A DNA stretch of 23,787 nt, taken from the NCBI GenBank assembly GCA_021158055.1, contig JAGGVJ010000009.1, forward strand, positions 1-23,787. Reading direction: 5' to 3'. Every line of letters starts with the position of its first letter. Positions within the stretch are counted from its first letter, which is position 1. The stretch is from Candidatus Iainarchaeum sp. Lineage in GTDB: Archaea > Iainarchaeota > Iainarchaeia > JAGGVJ01. Below, one piece after another: positions 11,745 through 23,787 of the stretch. The position numbers and the translations under genes were made by a program. The notes under the pieces were generated by a model. That model was not told the DNA's origin and searched no databases. It worked only from the letters and a program-made list of their open reading frames with translations.

Positions 11745-12755
11745 TTAAAAAAGATTTGCAATGGATGGTTGTTGTTTTTTTGATTTTTTTACGCCGCCAG
11801 TTTTTTCCTTTTGCAATACTTTTTTAATTAGTTTATTTATGTTGGTATTTTTAACAGATTTAAGTTCTTTTGAGCCAAATAAGCGGAAATAATCTTCTCT
11901 TAAGCCTAAGCACAGGTGATTTAGTTTGCATTCTTTGCACGCGATTGATTTTACGTAATTGTTTTTTGATGAAACGGCATTTTTAAATGATTTTTTTTCT
12001 GTTATTATCCGGTCTTTTTTTTGTGAGATTATGTCCCGAAGATTTTGTGAATATTCTTCAAAACCAGTGATAAAACAAAGAGGCATTCCACATTGAGATA
12101 TAATGAAATTAATTTTGTTTTTTTGACACATTTTAAGGGTTTTTTTTACGCTGTTTTCTACTTGTTGTAAGCGAGGCATTATTTCTATGTTTTTTTCAAC
12201 ATTTTTGTTTAGGCCTACAAAACCAATGTCAAATCTGTTTATTTTTGAAAATTTTTGATTAATCCAAAGTATTGTTTTAGAAAGTTCAGAGTAGTTTAGG
12301 GTGTTGATTACAATGCTAATATTTACAGTTATGTTTGAATTAATCAAATGCTCTATTCCTTCAACTGTCTTGTAAAACCCCCCGTTTAGTTGGGTTATCT
12401 TGTCTGATATTTCTGCTTTATGTGAGTGAAGAGAAACAAGTGCAAAATCAAGACCAGAGCTTTTTAAGTCACATGCAATTTTTTTTGTAATTTCTGTTGC
12501 GTTTGTTTGAAGAATTGTATGACATTTATTTTGTTTGCAAAATGAGATTAATTGAGGTAAATCATTGCGTAGAGTGGGTTCTCCACCGGTAAAAATAATT
12601 GTTTGTGTGGAGTTATCGCTTTTTGATTGTAATTCAATATTAATTTTTTCCAGCACTGCCTTTGTTGAAAGCCAATAATTGGAGTCAAACGAAGAACTGC
12701 AAAAAAGACATTTTTCATTGCAGTGTGTATTCAGTAATATTGTTGAAGAGGACAT
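11745..12755 (-). CDS. Radical SAM enzyme with SPASM-like auxiliary Cys motif (rSAM 1)
   Basis: This 336-aa protein has the SAM cluster motif CNEKCLFC (C12, C16, C19), the GGEP motif at 57-60, and the barrel features ILQTNA and SLHSHKAEISDKI. A P-x-C (MPLC, C227) and C-x2-C-x5-C (C273, C276, C282) followed by LG..EDYFRLFGSKEL form a likely auxiliary 4Fe-4S site of the SPASM/Twitch type. Such enzymes often modify peptides, and HxsC-type maturases of His-Xaa-Ser systems share this layout. The C-terminus (about 315-336) is a basic, glycine-containing tail (KTGGVKKSKKQQPS). AAGGTAAG precedes the start. It is about 7 kb from the second radical SAM enzyme, with which it shares the same motifs. Substrate unknown. 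Confidence 0.88.
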   Translation of the reverse strand: MSSSTILLNTHCNEKCLFCSSSFDSNYWLSTKAVLEKINIELQSKSDNSTQTIIFTGGEPTLRNDLPQLISFCKQNKCHTILQTNATEITKKIACDLKSSGLDFALVSLHSHKAEISDKITQLNGGFYKTVEGIEHLINSNITVNISIVINTLNYSELSKTILWINQKFSKINRFDIGFVGLNKNVEKNIEIMPRLQQVENSVKKTLKMCQKNKINFIISQCGMPLCFITGFEEYSQNLRDIISQKKDRIITEKKSFKNAVSSKNNYVKSIACKECKLNHLCLGLREDYFRLFGSKELKSVKNTNINKLIKKVLQKEKTGGVKKSKKQQPSIANLF

Positions 12756-16764: not shown

Positions 16765-17622
16765 ATGGGTATAATTGCTGATTGTTCCAGGGATTTGTTG
16801 AGTAGTTTCAACAGAAACAAACAAAATCTGCAGGATATTTTCGTGGAAAATATTTCTTTTGAATTTTTATATACAATGATTGGGCTTTCTGATGGTTCGC
16901 AGGGGATTGCACTTAATTACAATTATGCTGATCCATCTGGAACATCCGGAACAAAGTTTATGGGGTGTGATTGTGAATCTGTTTTGAAGAAAAATGCCTT
17001 TGGTCTGACTGAATTGTCAGCAAAAGTAGCTACAATGAGTGCTCTTTCCCAGCGGTTTTTTAATAAGAGGGAGATGGGGAAGATAGATGTTGATTTTCAG
17101 AAAGATAAATTTATGCTGGATTCTATTGTCAGGGATAATGAAACGGTTTCAATAGTTGGTTGGGGCGGATTGCTGGATGCTGCCGGCATGTCAAACGCAC
17201 GGAAAGTCAATGTTGTTGAGCTTCAGTACAATCGGTTGACATGTAAAAGGTTTGATGGTGCCTGTGAAAAATTGGGGCGCGTTTTCAATAAGCAGATTTC
17301 TTGTTTTGGCACTGATAAAATGGGCGTCCTTTTGGAGTCGGATGTGATATGCATTACAGCATCTGCTCTATGCAACAACACGATGGAGGATATTCTTTCT
17401 TATTGCAGTAATGCAAGGGAAGTCATAGTTCACGGGCCCAGTGGAAGTATATTTCCCAGTGCATTTTTTAACAGTGGCGTTACAGGTGTTTTGACATATC
17501 TTGTAAATGTTGATTTATTTAGTCTTAGCAAGAAAACGCCGGATATTGCAAGAGAACCAAATAAATATCTGGAGGGGGTTTATCTCAAAAAAAGCAAAAA
17601 TTTCAAAATGGTTGAGGGATAA
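16765..17622 (+). CDS. DUF4213/DUF364-type putative metal-chelating protein
   Basis: This 285-aa protein resembles the two-domain DUF4213-DUF364 proteins, annotated as putative heavy-metal chelation proteins. The N-terminal part (about 20-95) has the VENISFEFLYTMIGLSDGSQGIALNY pattern of DUF4213. The C-terminal part is Rossmann-like: DVICITASALCNNTMEDIL at 193-211, then VIVHGPSGSIFPSAFFNSGVTGVL at 220-243, with the diagnostic GPS at 224-226. Cys are numerous (C7, C68, C70, C160, C167, C180, C203, C214), and CDC at 68-70 may be unusual. It lies between a secreted Cys-rich gene and the HxsD-like gene, near radical SAM genes that need Fe-S clusters. A metal or cluster-related role is plausible but unproven. 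Confidence 0.75.
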   Translation: MGIIADCSRDLLSSFNRNKQNLQDIFVENISFEFLYTMIGLSDGSQGIALNYNYADPSGTSGTKFMGCDCESVLKKNAFGLTELSAKVATMSALSQRFFNKREMGKIDVDFQKDKFMLDSIVRDNETVSIVGWGGLLDAAGMSNARKVNVVELQYNRLTCKRFDGACEKLGRVFNKQISCFGTDKMGVLLESDVICITASALCNNTMEDILSYCSNAREVIVHGPSGSIFPSAFFNSGVTGVLTYLVNVDLFSLSKKTPDIAREPNKYLEGVYLKKSKNFKMVEG

Positions 17623-17642: not shown

Positions 17643-18086
17643 TTATTTGGGCGGACGCCATGGTTTGGTGATTCCGTTCGGATCATCAAGATAGCTTTTG
17701 GATTCTTCTTCTATTTCTTTGCAGATTTCTGTACTTGCGGGTCTGGTGCTGTCTTGGTTATTGAGTGCATTTGACATTGTCAGCGCAAGTGATGTGAGTG
17801 ATTCTCTTAGCGCTTGATTTCTAATTGTTTTTTCTACAAAAACAGAATACTCAATTAGTTTATTGTTAAAGGTTTCACCGACATCTTTTGATATTTCTTT
17901 GTCTTCTTTTTGCCTGATGCTGACAAGAATTTCATTTTCAACATCTCCGTCCAGCATTACGAAATAATTATTAACGAAGTCATTTGCTGCAAGAGTTATC
18001 ACTGGCAGTGGGTATATTGAAGGATCAATAGAGACTAGAATATGTCTTTTTGATTCATCTATTCTGAAATTGTTCATTTTTTCCAT
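17643..18086 (-). CDS. HxsD-like protein (His-Xaa-Ser system family)
   Basis: This 147-aa protein matches from memory the pattern of HxsD, the small partner of the HxsB and HxsC radical SAM enzymes. The core is ILVSIDPSIYPLPVITLAAN (16-35), then VNNYFVMLDGD (38-48), ILVSIRQKE (53-61), and a helix FNNKLIEYSVFVEKTIRNQALRESLTSLAL (73-102) corresponding to the family's LLNDYFLRE region. The tail is different: it ends in DDPNGITKPWRPPK. The ATG at 18086 has AGAGGAT upstream; ATG at 18077 is an alternative. It has its own promoter and sits 1.4 kb from the two tandem radical SAM genes. HxsD's biochemical role is not established. The assignment rests on recalled motif patterns, not a search. Confidence 0.6.
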   Translation of the reverse strand: MEKMNNFRIDESKRHILVSIDPSIYPLPVITLAANDFVNNYFVMLDGDVENEILVSIRQKEDKEISKDVGETFNNKLIEYSVFVEKTIRNQALRESLTSLALTMSNALNNQDSTRPASTEICKEIEEESKSYLDDPNGITKPWRPPK

Positions 18087-18186: not shown

Positions 18187-19266
18187 TCAGTATCTGTTGG
18201 AATAGTCCTCTTCGCATCCTTTTTGAATGTCTGTTTGGTCAATCATTTTGCATATTGTGATGTCTTTTTGCCTTATGGCCCCACCTGTGAAGCAATCCCA
18301 TTTTATTTTATCGATTGTTAAGCTTTCGCATAGTGTCGGATTGACCCGACTATATAATCTGGATAAGCATATCTCTTTTTTGTGGGAAGTTGACATTCTG
18401 TCACAAAGAGATTCATCGTTTATACGCCCGGAAACAAGTTCAATTATGCAATCGTCTTTTAAATTTTGATCTGATATGTAGTTGCATAAATCAGCATTGT
18501 ATTTGCGTTTGGCAAGGGTTTGGTAGCAGTTATCTTTTATGCCTTGGTCGTTTATTGAGTCACAGTATTGAGTCATATCCGATTGGTTGTCTTTGTTTGT
18601 TGAATCAGTATTCGAAAATAAAAACCGTGCAACCGCAGCATAACATGATGATGCGACTGATTGGTCGTTGATGAGGGCGCAGAAATTTTTGTCCTGTCTG
18701 TCCAGACCAAGATGGTAATTACACTTGTCTTTTAGGTTTTTGTCAGACACCGCGTTGCAGCTACCTGCATTTCCGGAAATGACTGAATAGTAATAAATGC
18801 AATTGTCTCTTTCATCACCAAGCGAATCGCATACTTCCGGGTTATTTTGCGAAACTGCATGAGTTACCGCACATTCCATGTCTGAAGGCGCAGGAATTGT
18901 TTCAGCGGAGCACCGGTTTATTCCATGATAATTGTCAAGAGAGTGTAAGCAATTGTTTCTAATTGTTGGTTCGCTTTTGATTTTCAGGCAGTTTGAACGA
19001 TTGTTTGTCACTTCGGCAGATAGTAAGTAACAAAAGCCTTTGTATCTTGAACTCTTTGCGTTTTCAACAATAATTGAGTCACAGTGTTTTGATGGCTCTG
19101 GGCTTTCAAGAGCCAGGGCCAGCCAGTTAAAATCAAGATTTCCGTTTTCGGTTTTCCAGCTTTCATTTTTTTCAGAAAAATTGTTTTCGCTGGAAATGCA
19201 TCCAATAAAGATTGCAATTGATAAAATGCTGATAAATACTGTTCCCTTAATTTTTGCATTGAACAT
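18187..19266 (-). CDS. Lipoprotein-like protein of about ten Cys-pair repeats
   Basis: The 359-aa product starts with a hydrophobic signal (about 9-22) and a lipobox-like IFIGC with C23. From about residue 90 on it is built of units of roughly 26 residues: C, about 11 residues, C, then 12-14 residues. Examples are CNAVSDKNLKDKC, CALINDQSVASSC, CDSINDQGIKDNC, CNYISDQNLKDDC, CDRMSTSHKKEIC, CESLTIDKIKWDC and CKMIDQTDIQKGC. The alternation of I-x-D, K-D and a following Y/L-rich helix suggests a helical hairpin solenoid held by one disulfide per unit. Ten clear units are visible, with an irregular one at the N-terminal end. I do not know a named family for it. It is near-leaderless (minus-strand TATA ATTTATTG near 19294-19301). 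Confidence 0.8.
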   Translation of the reverse strand: MFNAKIKGTVFISILSIAIFIGCISSENNFSEKNESWKTENGNLDFNWLALALESPEPSKHCDSIIVENAKSSRYKGFCYLLSAEVTNNRSNCLKIKSEPTIRNNCLHSLDNYHGINRCSAETIPAPSDMECAVTHAVSQNNPEVCDSLGDERDNCIYYYSVISGNAGSCNAVSDKNLKDKCNYHLGLDRQDKNFCALINDQSVASSCYAAVARFLFSNTDSTNKDNQSDMTQYCDSINDQGIKDNCYQTLAKRKYNADLCNYISDQNLKDDCIIELVSGRINDESLCDRMSTSHKKEICLSRLYSRVNPTLCESLTIDKIKWDCFTGGAIRQKDITICKMIDQTDIQKGCEEDYSNRY

Positions 19267-19489: not shown

Positions 19490-20455
19490 ATGGTAAATAG
19501 TGTTGACCTTAATATCGGCACAATGTGCAACAATAATTGCCGGTTTTGTGTAGTTGATCACAGCAGGAATCCAACACATGATTGTTTTGAAGATATAGAA
19601 AAAGAACTTGAAGCATTCAGAGAAAAGGGCGTAGAATCAGTGGCTTTCCTTGGTGGTGAAGCTACAATTCGCAGAGATATCATTGAAATGATTTCGCTTG
19701 CGAAAAAACTTGGTTACGCTAAAATCCGGATTGTGAGCAATGGGAGGATGTATTGCTATCCTGATTTTTTGGAAAAAATTATCAAAGCAGGGGTGAACAG
19801 GTTTTCTGTTTCAATACATGCTCACAATGCGTCACTTGGGGATTACCTGTCAAGATCCAAAGGCAGTTTCACGCAGACAACAACAGGGATAAAAAATATA
19901 TGCAAAATGGGTTTTTCGTTAGACACAAATACCGTGATAAACAAATTAAATTACAAGCACCTTCCTGAAATTGTATTATTCTTAAATAATCTGGGCGTAA
20001 ACAACATGCATTTTTCAGTCATAAATCCGATGGGAAATGCAATGACTAATTTTGATGAGATGGTGCCCACGCTGACTGAAATTTCACCTTATATAAAAAA
20101 ATCACTGAAAATCTGTGACAAGAATAACATTTATTTAACCATTGATTCTCTTCCCTTTTGCATACTGCCGGAGTGCAACAGATACAAAAGCGAACTTTAT
20201 GATATTTTAACGCACGTTAGTTTTTCAAAAGGGAATGAAAGAGATCGATTTTATTGGCAGGAACGCAAAAAAAACAAACTAAAAACAAAACCAAAAAAAT
20301 GTTGTTCATGCAGGTATTTTGGGGTTTGTGAGGGAATTTGGAAAGGTTATGCCAAAAAATTTGGGTTTAAAGAAATACTCCCGATAAATGGGGTAGAAAT
20401 ACACAATCTCGATCAAATGAAAAGAATTCAGGGACAAGGATTAAAAGACATATGA
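19490..20455 (+). CDS. Radical SAM enzyme with SPASM-like auxiliary Cys motif (rSAM 2)
   Basis: This 321-aa protein has the SAM cluster motif CNNNCRFC (C13, C17, C20), GGE at 55-57 (FLGGEATIRRD), IVSNGR, and SVSIHAHNASLGDYLSRSKGSF typical of MoaA/PqqE-like barrels. P-x-C (LPFC, C224) and C-x2-C-x5-C (C271, C274, C280) followed by EGIWKGYAKKFGFKEILPI form the likely auxiliary cluster. C228/C229-region CNRYKS and C272 add extra Cys. It is clearly a paralogue of rSAM 1, with the same motif order and C-terminal signature. It is 93 bases upstream of the 831-aa tandem pseudoenzyme and probably in the same operon. With the nearby HxsD-like gene, it is the best candidate for the HxsC-type enzyme. Substrate unknown. 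Confidence 0.88.
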   Translation: MVNSVDLNIGTMCNNNCRFCVVDHSRNPTHDCFEDIEKELEAFREKGVESVAFLGGEATIRRDIIEMISLAKKLGYAKIRIVSNGRMYCYPDFLEKIIKAGVNRFSVSIHAHNASLGDYLSRSKGSFTQTTTGIKNICKMGFSLDTNTVINKLNYKHLPEIVLFLNNLGVNNMHFSVINPMGNAMTNFDEMVPTLTEISPYIKKSLKICDKNNIYLTIDSLPFCILPECNRYKSELYDILTHVSFSKGNERDRFYWQERKKNKLKTKPKKCCSCRYFGVCEGIWKGYAKKFGFKEILPINGVEIHNLDQMKRIQGQGLKDI

Positions 20456-20548: not shown

Positions 20549-23044
20549 ATGGTTATTGAAAGTTCTGATGACAGGAACACATTTTTTTTTGACCTTTCGT
20601 TAGTTGATTATAAATGCATTAGCAAAACCAGGTTAAAATATTTTTTCAAGGAAGCGGTGGAAAGATATAAGAGAATTGTGTTTGAGAAAATAGAACCGGT
20701 TGAACACAAGTTCTTTTCTGAAATTATGAAAGATGCGAAAGATGCTGGATTTGAAGAAGTAATAATTACCACAAGTGGGAAAATCCCCCTTGAATCTTCT
20801 TTTTTTTTGAACTACAAATCATTTGGTTTAACATCAATAGCATTTTTTGTTGATAATAGTTTTTGCGAAGCGACTAAGAAGAACATGCTTGTGACAAGTT
20901 CTAACATTGAAAAGCAGGGGTTGTCCTGTTATTCTGTGGAAGTTTGTTTATCCCCCTCCAATTATAAAATGTGTTTAGAGACCTGTAAGTTTGCTGTGAA
21001 TCAACTCAATGCAAAGACAATCTGCTTTTCCCTGGATTTTCCTTTTGTTTGCGGCAGTAGTGAGAAAACATTTTTGTCAGAATCTGTAAAAACACAGTTT
21101 GGTCTGGCTGTTGACTGGTTGAGAAAAAAAGGAATTGATATCCAGACCAAAGGAATTCAGATAGCAGATTTGGAGGGGGGATTTGAAGAATTTATTGAAT
21201 CTTTCGGAGTTACTTGCAGCAGGATCTATTCAAGATCACCGGCGTTCCGTTCATATGGATTTACGACTCCTCTTTGTTTTGGATTGGATTGCAATTCGTG
21301 TGGTTGCAAGTCAATCTGTATTGAAATAAGCTGCATAAATAAATCTCTTCAGGAGCGTGCCGGTTTGGACACAGTGATGATTGATCTGGGAAATTCGTGC
21401 AATAACACATTAAAAACTTTTTCAAAAGTAAGGGATGAATTAATAATGATGAAAAAAGGAGGTTTTTCATCAGTTGTCTTCAGTGGGATTGAACCTGTTA
21501 ATTCTCCTTATTTTTGCGATTTGGTTTCCTTTTCACGCGAATTGGGTTTCAAAGAAGTGAGTGTGGCATGTGGAGGGTGGCATTTTTCAGACAAGTCATT
21601 TTGTCAGGCAGCAGAAAAAGCAGGACTCAAAAAAGTTATTATAAATGTTTTTGCGGGGGAACCGGAAACTTATTGCAGGATAGCCGGTTCACAATCCTCG
21701 GTTTCTGATTTTGAGAGGTGGCAAATGGGAATTGAGAATGTTGTGAATGCCGGTTTTGAAACAGAGTTTGTTGTTAATATCATGAAGAAAAATTTTTTTA
21801 GTCTGCCTAGTATTTCGGAATTTTTAAAGCAATTTAAATCAAAAATTATTTTTAAGTATGTTAATCCTATTTATGGCGTTAAAGATGATAATTCATTAAA
21901 AAAGGAAGATATTTTGAGGTTCAAAGAGCTTGAGCCTTATCTGGTCAAAGCGGTTTCTGGGCTTGAGTCAGAATTTACCCTGCGGGATTTTCCTTTCTGT
22001 GCGGTATCTCATATCAGTGGATTTAGTGAAGTTATTGAGTCAGATTTAAAAATCAAGGTTGAATCAAACTATATTGAGGATGTGTTTCATCTTAGGCGTG
22101 GTTTGATGGTCCCTGAATTTTTTGAACATATTCGTGACATTGTAAAGAAATCTTTTTTTGATGAAAGTCCCAAGTTGAGTTTTCCGTTTAGGGTTGATCC
22201 GCTGAAATTCGCATCTTTTTATAAATATCACGGGAAAACAAAATCAGTTTTGTGCAATGATTGTGTGCATTATCCATATTGCGATGGAATTTTTGAAACA
22301 CATGCCCGAGCAGGCGGGTTTGCTGAATTGACCTGCATTCATTCAGGAGCAGATGGGAAAAAACAAGGGGATAAATGCATTTCAAATCAGCTTGAAAGGA
22401 TGAAAAAGAACAGGAAAGAAGCAGTAGAAGTGCTTAAAACAAACGTTGAATTTACTGAACGGATATGTGAATATCAAAAGGAAAAAGATTATCTGATTAA
22501 TAATCCCCTGCCAAAAGATTTAGTCATGAGGAGGTTATCCGGACTGGCAAAAATAGTTGTGCCAAAGATCATTTGTAATGCAAGGGATTTTCTCAGACTT
22601 TACTATGGCTCAAACAGAAGGGTCGGAATAGAAATAAAGGATGACCGTCAAAGGATGAAACAATTGGAACTTCTTCTGGAGGAAGTTGATTGTGCAGAAT
22701 CCCAGCAAATTTATCTTGAGAATAATTTTTCAGATTTGAAAGATTTTTTGGGTTACATGAAAAAAGCAGTACTCTTGAGGGAAAGATTGACTTCAGCTAT
22801 TCACTTGAATATATTTTTGCTGGATATTCTTACAAGAGACGTTGAAGGCAACACCACAGCCGAACAACGCAAATGTGTTTTCAATGCATTTGAGAGTTTA
22901 AGCGAAGAAGGCTCAAAAAAGGCGCTTGATGAATTGGATTCACTTTGGTTTGCGTTTGAGAGCCAGTCAAAGTTTTTCTTTAAAACCAAAAAAGGATTTA
23001 TTTTTTCTAAATTCCCGGTTTTTCATGAAACAAAATCACTTTAA
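20549..23044 (+). CDS. Tandem double-barrel radical SAM pseudoenzyme with retained auxiliary Cys
   Basis: This 831-aa protein has two radical SAM-like barrels and a helical C-terminal domain. Barrel 1 (about 10-260) has C23 where the first SAM-cluster Cys belongs but T27 and K30 in place of the other two; GGEP has become KIEP (47-50). Barrel 2 (about 272-595) keeps C284 but has L288 and F291; GGEP has become GIEP (313-316). Both keep the auxiliary signature: PLC243 with C248, C251, C257, and PFC483 with C569, C572, C578, the latter followed by DGIFETHARAGGFAEL as in rSAM 1 and 2. Residues about 610-831 are helical with no known motif. The protein should not bind a catalytic SAM cluster but may hold two auxiliary clusters. 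It follows rSAM 2, whose partner it may be. Confidence 0.8.
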   Translation: MVIESSDDRNTFFFDLSLVDYKCISKTRLKYFFKEAVERYKRIVFEKIEPVEHKFFSEIMKDAKDAGFEEVIITTSGKIPLESSFFLNYKSFGLTSIAFFVDNSFCEATKKNMLVTSSNIEKQGLSCYSVEVCLSPSNYKMCLETCKFAVNQLNAKTICFSLDFPFVCGSSEKTFLSESVKTQFGLAVDWLRKKGIDIQTKGIQIADLEGGFEEFIESFGVTCSRIYSRSPAFRSYGFTTPLCFGLDCNSCGCKSICIEISCINKSLQERAGLDTVMIDLGNSCNNTLKTFSKVRDELIMMKKGGFSSVVFSGIEPVNSPYFCDLVSFSRELGFKEVSVACGGWHFSDKSFCQAAEKAGLKKVIINVFAGEPETYCRIAGSQSSVSDFERWQMGIENVVNAGFETEFVVNIMKKNFFSLPSISEFLKQFKSKIIFKYVNPIYGVKDDNSLKKEDILRFKELEPYLVKAVSGLESEFTLRDFPFCAVSHISGFSEVIESDLKIKVESNYIEDVFHLRRGLMVPEFFEHIRDIVKKSFFDESPKLSFPFRVDPLKFASFYKYHGKTKSVLCNDCVHYPYCDGIFETHARAGGFAELTCIHSGADGKKQGDKCISNQLERMKKNRKEAVEVLKTNVEFTERICEYQKEKDYLINNPLPKDLVMRRLSGLAKIVVPKIICNARDFLRLYYGSNRRVGIEIKDDRQRMKQLELLLEEVDCAESQQIYLENNFSDLKDFLGYMKKAVLLRERLTSAIHLNIFLLDILTRDVEGNTTAEQRKCVFNAFESLSEEGSKKALDELDSLWFAFESQSKFFFKTKKGFIFSKFPVFHETKSL

Positions 23045-23787
23045 ATAGGATTAGTTTTTGTTAAGATCCATGTTTTGAAAGCAAGAAAAGTAATAAAATA
23101 TCTGCCACATTTGTTTTTTATAAAGCTATTTTCAATACTTAAAAGATGTTTGTTAATTGTTTTTAAGGGGATATTCAAAGTGTTAATAATATCTTTTTTT
23201 GAGAGACCGTCGTGAGTGGCAATTTCAGTCATGATTTTCAAGCATATGTTATTTTCTTTCTGCGTGGCGGCATTTATGTTTATTAGTTTTTGGAAATAAA
23301 TAGTGAAAATTGAGTTTTTTGAATATATTTCTTTTTCACAAAAGATTAAAAAAGAATTGTGATTAATGGGTTTTTCTGTTGAATTTATTTGAATCAAATA
23401 TTTTTCCAGGAGAAATTTGGCAATTAAAGGAAATCCATGAGAGTATTCAAATAAGATGTCAGTTATTTTTTTTATTTCACGGGTGGTTAGATTGTTTTTT
23501 GCAGATATTCCTAAAAAAAGCATTGGGAATAACTCAAGAATCTTCTCCGTAAATATTCTCATTTGGTGTTTCTTGAATGCTTTGATTTCAATTAGTTTTA
23601 TTCTTTCAATTTGTTTGCACAATTTTTTTGTTTTCTGCAGTTTTGATTTTTTGTTACAGGTACTACAAAAGATGAAAGAAACATTTTCTTGCTGCAAAAA
23701 AGCATTGATGAGTTTTTTTGAGTTGAAAGTCAATTCTTTTTTTTTGGAAAAAAAATGAAATTCATCTAAAATTATTATTGTTTTTTC
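23041..23787 (-). CDS. Archaeal AAA/STAND-type ATPase, N-terminus beyond window edge
   Basis: The first standard start is TTG at 23733, but the frame stays open to the window edge. The 18 extra codons there encode a Walker B strand and its context (TIIILDEFHFFSKKKE), leading into the next strand VSFIFCST. The gene is therefore 5' partial, with Walker A outside the window. The visible part holds the ATPase lid (LTTREIKKITDILFEYSHGFPLIAKFLLEKYL, with the HGFPL motif of archaeal ATPases) and a C-terminal winged helix (about residues 160-215 from the TTG: GLSKKDIINTLNIPLKTINKHLLSIE). Such ATPase_2-type proteins are common in archaeal genomes, often with mobile or variable roles. It converges on the 831-aa gene with a 4-base overlap of the stop codons. 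Confidence 0.75.
   Translation of the reverse strand, partial: EKTIIILDEFHFFSKKKELTFNSKKLINAFLQQENVSFIFCSTCNKKSKLQKTKKLCKQIERIKLIEIKAFKKHQMRIFTEKILELFPMLFLGISAKNNLTTREIKKITDILFEYSHGFPLIAKFLLEKYLIQINSTEKPINHNSFLIFCEKEIYSKNSIFTIYFQKLININAATQKENNICLKIMTEIATHDGLSKKDIINTLNIPLKTINKHLLSIENSFIKNKCGRYFITFLAFKTWILTKTNPI

Follow-up and report, generated by a model that had tools for sequence, protein, structure and literature searches.

The window, meaning the whole 23,787-nt stretch of DNA analysed here, is the entire contig C29 of a 1.15-Mb archaeal genome in 45 contigs that carries an Orc1/Cdc6-type gene. Its forward strand encodes P0001, an intact, stop-free reading frame of 831 codons, and the positions of this gene, its parts and its relevant neighbours are collected in Table 1. 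In barrel 1, barrel 2 and the C-terminal part alike, the P0001 frame has a higher codon score than either alternative frame, and it therefore looks like a gene rather than a chance reading frame. The first-pass annotation had proposed that P0001 contains two tandem radical-SAM barrels; this architecture, with both barrels HxsC-like, is borne out by HMM searches, hhalign, AlphaFold models and the radical-SAM enzymes found as structural neighbours.

Table 1 Features of the window discussed in the text, with the evidence for each.
Feature	Position	Strand	Evidence
P0004, second intact HxsC-type radical-SAM enzyme in the window	11745..12755	-	
HxsD-like protein	17643..18086	-	32.5 vs 50 bits, below curated cut-off
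P0003, intact single HxsC-type radical-SAM enzyme, 93 nt upstream of P0001 on the same strand	19490..20455	+	
P0001, 831-aa tandem HxsC-type protein, both SAM sites lost	20549..23044	+	ORF, HMM matches, alignment
Barrel 1 (residues 1-272), degenerate HxsC barrel, KIEP replaces GGEP, SAM-cluster loop shortened	20549..21364	+	AF2, structure neighbours, HMM, trees
C23, in shortened loop after strand 1; SAM-cluster Cys equivalence uncertain	20615..20617	+	Alignments
A206, at family-invariant PxC auxiliary Cys column, Cys lost in barrel 1	21164..21166	+	Alignment
Barrel 1 auxiliary set C243/C248/C251/C257 (+C262), C-x4-C-x2-C-x5-C-x4-C	21275..21334	+	Paralogue and bacterial tandems
Barrel 2 (residues 273-600), degenerate HxsC barrel, GIEP replaces GGEP, two of three SAM Cys deleted	21365..22348	+	AF2, structure neighbours, hhalign
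C284, sole SAM-cluster Cys left in barrel 2 (first position)	21398..21400	+	Alignment
Barrel 2 auxiliary set C484 (PxC), C569/C572/C578 (CxxCx5C)	21998..22282	+	4/4 family-invariant columns
C-terminal ~220 residues of P0001	22376..23041	+	Helical by prediction, low confidence, no family match

No Pfam family matches P0001 at E<=1, and PF04055 recovers its neighbours P0003 (3e-25) and P0004 (8.5e-20). With no such match and no CxxxCxxC motif in either barrel, P0001 is not assigned to PF04055. NCBIfam returns only weak matches (HxsC4, MoaA and other radical-SAM models), all of them within residues ~280-442 of barrel 2, and P0001 falls under the cut-offs for HxsC (TIGR03977; 20.8 vs 267.9 bits), HxsC4 (NF038332; 35.1 vs 500 bits) and the pseudo-SAM/SPASM model TIGR04347 (20.2 vs 525 bits). 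Judged by its model name alone, this last family comprises haloarchaeal radical-SAM homologues with a SPASM region and no SAM site, so that a SAM-less homologue is already precedented at the annotation level; unlike TIGR04347, P0001 is a tandem of the HxsC branch. Common descent with HxsC-type proteins is supported by hhalign (E 7.9e-30 for barrel 2 against single-domain HxsC relatives), HMM matches and trees. Both barrels are homologous to the HxsC/HxsC4 maturases, from which P0001 differs in being a tandem with neither CxxxCxxC nor GGE in either half. The C-terminal ~220 residues were previously described as an unknown helical domain; helices are indeed predicted and Pfam gives no match for the region, although model confidence is low there (pLDDT about 45-70 in the AlphaFold2 model of barrel 2 plus the C terminus). 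Comparison of this region with the C terminus of the paralogue P0002, described below, does not demonstrate homology.

We compared the cysteines of each barrel with a reference set of 43 intact single-domain HxsC-type proteins from the same genome and six others of its class. A full-length alignment of P0001 with these singles sent nearly all of them to barrel 2 and misplaced P0002, and the barrels were therefore modelled separately. Seven Cys columns are invariant in all 43 singles: the three of the SAM triad and four auxiliary ones, namely the PxC Cys and the three of CxxCx5C. The auxiliary cysteines are thus conserved across homologues, and the match of P0001 to these columns evidently exceeds chance.

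Barrel 2 is the better preserved of the two with respect to the auxiliary site. It has no CxxxCxxC, and the GGEP position reads GIEP (residues 313-316). C284 aligns with the first SAM-site Cys, as the first-pass annotation had it. All four auxiliary Cys are present, although the PxC Cys is C484 and not C483 as originally numbered. The AlphaFold blocks of this barrel have pLDDT values mostly of 90-98, and the closest structural neighbour is SkfB (Z 17.4, rmsd 3.2, 241 aligned residues), with NifB and viperin also at Z of about 17.

Barrel 1 has diverged further. It also lacks CxxxCxxC and carries KIEP (residues 47-50) at the GGEP position, which confirms the earlier observation that GGE is altered in both halves. 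C23 had been taken as the remaining first SAM-site Cys here too. This label is unsupported: different alignments pair it either with the third SAM-site Cys or with a loop Cys, and the barrel 1 loop is about 17 residues short. An intact PxC plus CxxCx5C set had likewise been assigned to barrel 1. The CxxCx5C triplet is kept (C248/C251/C257), whereas the PxC column is occupied by A206 in P0001 and by K229 in P0002. C243, four residues before C248, has a counterpart in P0002 (C264) and looks like a relocated auxiliary ligand; C262, also common to both proteins, brings this region of barrel 1 to five Cys. In the HMM search, barrel 1 gives an i-E of 1.6e-6. Its AlphaFold2 model (43 sequences; mean pLDDT 75.4, pTM 0.76) shows regular strand-helix alternation between strands 11-15 and 197-201, and viperin is its nearest structural neighbour (Z 14.1, rmsd 3.8, 199 aligned residues), with PqqE and SkfB also among the nearest. 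Structure prediction thus yields barrel folds in both halves, and P0001 conforms to the partial (beta/alpha)6 barrel of radical-SAM enzymes with best Z of 14.1 and 17.4, in AF2 models whose input alignments contained radical-SAM relatives; since they did, the barrel 1 fold is supported but not independently proven. Thirty-two columns are conserved in at least 80% of singles; barrel 1 retains 13 of these and barrel 2 retains 20, compared with 23 and 20 in the respective barrels of P0002. Besides the auxiliary four, barrel 1 contains 11 Cys, or 4.0 per 100 aa, where the 43 singles average 1.05 and reach at most 2.4; its terminal branch is extremely long (4.5 and 3.6 changes per column in two trees).

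P0002, a 764-aa paralogue on contig C5 of the same genome, is 28% identical to P0001 and shares all nine of its auxiliary-region Cys. Its first barrel is of the active type (CNNKCIFC and GGEP), and its second is degenerate, with GYEP and all four auxiliary Cys. In the maximum-likelihood tree, the first barrels of P0001 and P0002 pair with each other (98/98), as do the second barrels (99/98). The barrels pair by position across the two proteins, so the fusion preceded the gene split. Most simply, inactivation of barrel 2 would also predate the split. That of barrel 1 came afterwards and affects P0001 alone; because of its very long branch, the position of this barrel in the tree is the less certain one. 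The first barrels of both proteins cluster with those of bacterial tandems (SH-aLRT 96). Beside P0002 lies P0005, a single HxsC that clusters with the singles beside bacterial tandems (98), so a two-gene module of tandem plus single HxsC appears to be common to bacteria and this archaeon. Long branches meet in this part of the tree, and the grouping of P0005 is its less secure part.

Relatives with one active and one dead half are found in both domains. The tandem L167, from a groundwater Deltaproteobacteria MAG, is among the pattern-search matches listed, and with P0002 as query, 130 of 377 genomes from the phylum of that MAG have matches at E<=1e-25 (best 1.2e-50), mostly within frames of 500-870 aa. 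The bacterial counts that follow rest on 28 proteins whose full sequences were read. CxxxCxxC and GGE are present in barrel 1 of 28/28, and in every one the PxC Cys is replaced and a Cys stands four or five residues ahead of CxxCx5C. The second half never contains CxxxCxxC (0/28) and always retains both the PxC-position Cys and CxxCx5C (28/28 each). It aligns to the HxsC profile over 205 columns (E 1.7e-8, probability 95%), which marks it as a remnant HxsC that has lost the SAM-Cys-bearing start. In the phylum of a Woesearchaeota genome, the active-plus-dead pair occurs in four loci, and the dead half keeps the auxiliary Cys in all four. The pair makes up the 661-aa L254. L255 (1082 aa), L256 (864 aa) and L258 (828 aa, truncated at its start by a contig end) each combine it with one or two more HxsC domains, an arrangement that argues for joint action of such proteins.

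Among members with a readable first half, only P0001 has a dead one. Its second half follows the family pattern, with no CxxxCxxC, C484 at the PxC position and C569/C572/C578, and its first half carries the relocated-Cys pattern C-x4/5-C-x2-C-x5-C without the CxxxCxxC and GGE of an active barrel 1. Two-half layout, relocated barrel 1 Cys and the auxiliary set of the dead half are thus common to P0001 and the active-plus-dead tandems. We therefore place P0001 at the extreme of a family of tandems that are normally active plus dead, and do not regard it as a lone oddity. The earlier suggestion that both catalytic sites were lost while the second Cys sets were retained gains support from P0001 itself, the paralogue on C5, and the bacterial and Woesearchaeota-phylum relatives. 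The other 86 genomes of the archaeon's phylum gave no tandem match, and the searches turned up no orthologue with both halves dead. NCBIfam assigns no family above cut-off to the active-plus-dead members scanned. On viral contigs, the tandem alignment query returned generic radical-SAM matches or none. A plasmid search gave partial matches only, which span at most 36% of the query and include several with an HxsC annotation.

Loss of the SAM site with retention of the auxiliary Cys extends beyond the tandems to 12 further HxsC derivatives, comprising 10 bacterial singles and two archaeal standalone proteins. The tandem is preceded at 10 bacterial loci by a gene for an HxsC relative with PxC and CxxCx5C and no CxxxCxxC; at others of the bacterial tandem loci, an intact enzyme occupies this position. 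In two related archaeal genomes, proteins of 209-215 aa consist of the HxsC auxiliary part and a C-terminal extension. These are 71% identical to each other (149/209) and adjoin a SufS-like cysteine desulfurase, named from sequence only. The SAM-site losses in these relatives are evidently separate from that of the tandem, and together the SAM-less derivatives argue that the auxiliary site is worth keeping without SAM chemistry.

The genome contains further parts of a His-Xaa-Ser (Hxs) system. HxsB scores above the NCBIfam cut-off (426.5 vs 370 bits), and HxsD-like and HxsA-like genes match significantly but below theirs. The HxsA-like ORF, on contig C28, has a His-Xaa-Ser run and many Cys and is truncated by the contig end. 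Among the HxsA, HxsB and HxsD genes, only the HxsD-like one is adjacent to P0001; HxsA is not beside it. Similar islands, again with several HxsC genes, occur in related archaea. No obvious HxsA is seen in those bacterial tandem operons that were examined. The literature searched contains no description of a His-Xaa-Ser system product. P0003 is most closely related to an HxsC-type gene on C28 (76% identity) and not to P0005, and is evidently a recent copy of the C28 gene. The trees place it away from the P0005 type, which leaves P0003 unsupported as a dedicated orthologous partner of P0001. This weakens the earlier proposal that P0001 is a scaffold for the active enzyme upstream, because the single HxsC that goes with the tandem on C5 and in bacteria is of the P0005 type and is no orthologue of P0003.

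FbiC-type proteins have two radical-SAM domains per chain, both catalytic. P0001 resembles them in having two radical-SAM-type domains and differs in that neither has a canonical site. A further parallel is offered by TrnC/TrnD of thuricin CD, two related radical-SAM proteins in complex, in which one SAM cluster is dispensable and the partner with the dispensable cluster is modelled on the leader peptide (PMC12093266). TrnD carries a three-Cys CxxCx5C auxiliary motif (PMC12093266); unlike P0001, it has a working SAM cluster, and TrnC and TrnD are separate chains and sactisynthases, not HxsC proteins. When PapB is reactivated, electrons pass between molecules, probably by way of an auxiliary cluster, and the role of such clusters in radical-SAM enzymes has been called largely enigmatic (PMC10470005). 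By analogy, TrnC/TrnD and PapB fit a partner role as experimental precedents. In the literature searched, with subscription journals largely outside it, no active-plus-dead HxsC tandem, doubly dead member or radical-SAM pseudoenzyme of this kind is described.

The reading we favour, at about an even chance, is that P0001 acts as a non-catalytic partner subunit of HxsC, with cluster-assisted substrate docking as the main element. P0001 would belong to an expanded archaeal Hxs radical-SAM peptide-maturation system. The sequences show that it descends from an active and a dead HxsC barrel joined in one chain, and that its auxiliary Cys were retained. Each Cys set would still bind an Fe-S cluster, and the protein would be unable to cleave SAM. 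It may dock on an active HxsC (the adjacent P0003, the C5 enzyme or one of the C28 set), where its barrels and clusters could hold or orient a Cys/His-rich HxsA-like precursor, relay electrons between clusters, or both. Labour would then be divided within one chain in P0002, between its active and its dead, cluster-bearing barrel, and between chains for P0001. Against this reading stand the non-orthology of P0003, the lack of an HxsA gene beside P0001 or of an obvious one in the bacterial tandem operons examined, the failure to find a doubly dead orthologue, and the extreme divergence of barrel 1 with its 11 extra Cys, which a partner role does not explain. The new role suggested by the first-pass annotation fits the recurrent retention of auxiliary Cys if it is non-catalytic, and it may equally be electron transfer, substrate holding or a scaffold.

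The Cys sets could instead bind zinc or be purely structural, making P0001 a scaffold or leader-binding protein with no redox function. A Cx2Cx5C knuckle is able to hold Zn, prediction preserves both barrel folds and the C-terminal helices could serve as a docking module. In relatives, however, the same columns are auxiliary Fe-S positions, invariant in all 43 singles, and a PxC Cys kept alongside a distant CxxCx5C points to the ligands of a cluster more than to a short zinc knuckle; we consider this reading unlikely. Quite unlikely, in our view, is that P0001 serves mainly as an electron relay, with its two auxiliary clusters exchanging electrons with the SAM cluster of a partner HxsC that is active. 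Neither a ferredoxin-like nor a flavin partner domain is apparent, a double barrel of 600 residues would make a bulky relay, and the bacterial dead halves also keep much of the remaining barrel, as their 205 aligned columns indicate, even though the transfer proposed for PapB (PMC10470005) and the recurrence of SAM-less HxsC derivatives that keep the auxiliary Cys alone both speak for it.

Loss of both catalytic sites, the very long barrel 1 branch, the missing orthologue and a paralogue that is still half active would also suit a relic: a tandem gene that has been inactivated, is being lost and stays open by chance. We find this improbable, given 831 stop-free codons with a coding signal in each of the three segments, nine auxiliary-region Cys in common with a paralogue of only 28% identity and two barrel folds predicted to be maintained. 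The 11 Cys outside the auxiliary four, at nearly four times the mean density of the singles, raise the further idea that barrel 1 is still catalytic through a non-canonical metal or SAM site built from them. These Cys are scattered, GGE is lost as well, and the 13 conserved columns kept compare poorly with 23 in the active barrel of P0002, all of which makes continued catalysis highly improbable.

Beyond P0001 as a proposed partner subunit, the spread of the family over bacteria and archaea suggests that the dead barrel has a useful non-catalytic job in peptide modification, and His-Xaa-Ser systems probably use multi-component complexes. More tentatively, and at somewhat less than an even chance, HxsC enzymes may have repeatedly yielded SAM-less, cluster-bearing co-maturases in which only the auxiliary Fe-S site is under selection and which work within or beside an active HxsC, with P0001 as a doubly converted end point. 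Intact enzyme, active-plus-dead fusion, SAM-less singles, standalone auxiliary protein and doubly dead tandem form a series within one family, and its value lies in the graded losses and in their spread over both domains: it opens the function of the auxiliary cluster to study without SAM chemistry.

A join of contig C5, which carries P0002, to the end of the window would bring together in frame what may be the two halves of an AAA ATPase gene. The two contigs do not overlap in sequence, and comparison of the C-terminal half with a Cdc6 homologue by blastp was insignificant.

Barrel 1 (window 20549-21364) of P0001, the 831-aa tandem HxsC-type protein, carries 11 Cys on top of the auxiliary four and is enriched in Cys relative to the 43 intact single-domain relatives (4.0 vs 1.05 per 100 aa). 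At 10 bacterial loci, SAM-less HxsC singles lie immediately 5′ of the tandem gene; every one of them retains PxC + CxxCx5C, and several carry a CxH...CPxC motif close to the N-terminus. Two archaeal genomes encode standalone auxiliary-only derivatives that are 71% identical and lack the radical-SAM N-terminal part; genes for active HxsC and a SufS-like cysteine desulfurase, named from sequence, adjoin them.

Larger fusions contain 3 or 4 HxsC-type domains, one of which is dead in each protein. Both HxsC domains of the bacterial L204 protein keep CxxxCxxC, and its source genome, G087, has 34 HxsC-type matches. Sequence resembling a BFD-like [2Fe-2S] protein and an acetyltransferase separates these domains, and HxsB- and HxsD-like genes lie close by.

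Were the window contiguous with C5, the contig carrying the half-active paralogue P0002, a single ATPase gene would lie between both tandem genes; we saw no overlap between the two contig ends at the ATPase halves. Within the Hxs region of the window, the DUF364 gene adjoins an HxsD-like gene. The secreted or lipoprotein-like protein has repeated Cys-containing units, and no family match was found for it.

Archaeal Hxs islands contain putative prepilin peptidase-like genes, which suggests a connection with surface or pilus proteins. A second, weak HxsA4-like match in the source genome (G000) has a TGA within its frame.

Coordinates of HxsC derivatives and associated genes
Feature	Location	Strand	Remark
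Giant HxsC-type fusions	L255:141-3389, L256:4699-7293	+	Woesearchaeota-containing phylum
Giant HxsC-type fusion	L258:9532-12018	-	Woesearchaeota-containing phylum
Two-HxsC-domain bacterial protein	L204:12694-15720	-	1008 aa; contig shared with L167
Bacterial SAM-less HxsC singles	L224:1093-2085, L220:867-1826, L219:140-1036, L213:162-1019, L230:1251-2144, L234:1-1194, L223:340-1332	+	
Bacterial SAM-less HxsC singles	L233:3608-4561, L229:3714-4697	-	
Bacterial SAM-less HxsC single	L212:3-611		cut
AAA/Orc-like ATPase, C-terminal half	window 23041-23787	-	in frame to window end
AAA/Orc-like ATPase, N-terminal half	L009:5483-5923	+	in frame to C5 end
Auxiliary-only HxsC derivative	L060:449-1096	+	standalone, 215 aa
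Auxiliary-only HxsC derivative	L063:10222-10851	-	standalone, 209 aa
DUF364 gene	window 16765-17622	+	putative heavy-metal chelation
Secreted or lipoprotein-like protein	window 18187-19266	-	
Prepilin peptidase-like proteins	L010:5168-6307, L059:1460-2530	-	by sequence
Prepilin peptidase-like protein	L061:6261-7331	+	by sequence
HxsA4-like match	contig C36:6587-6739 (L189)	-	weak
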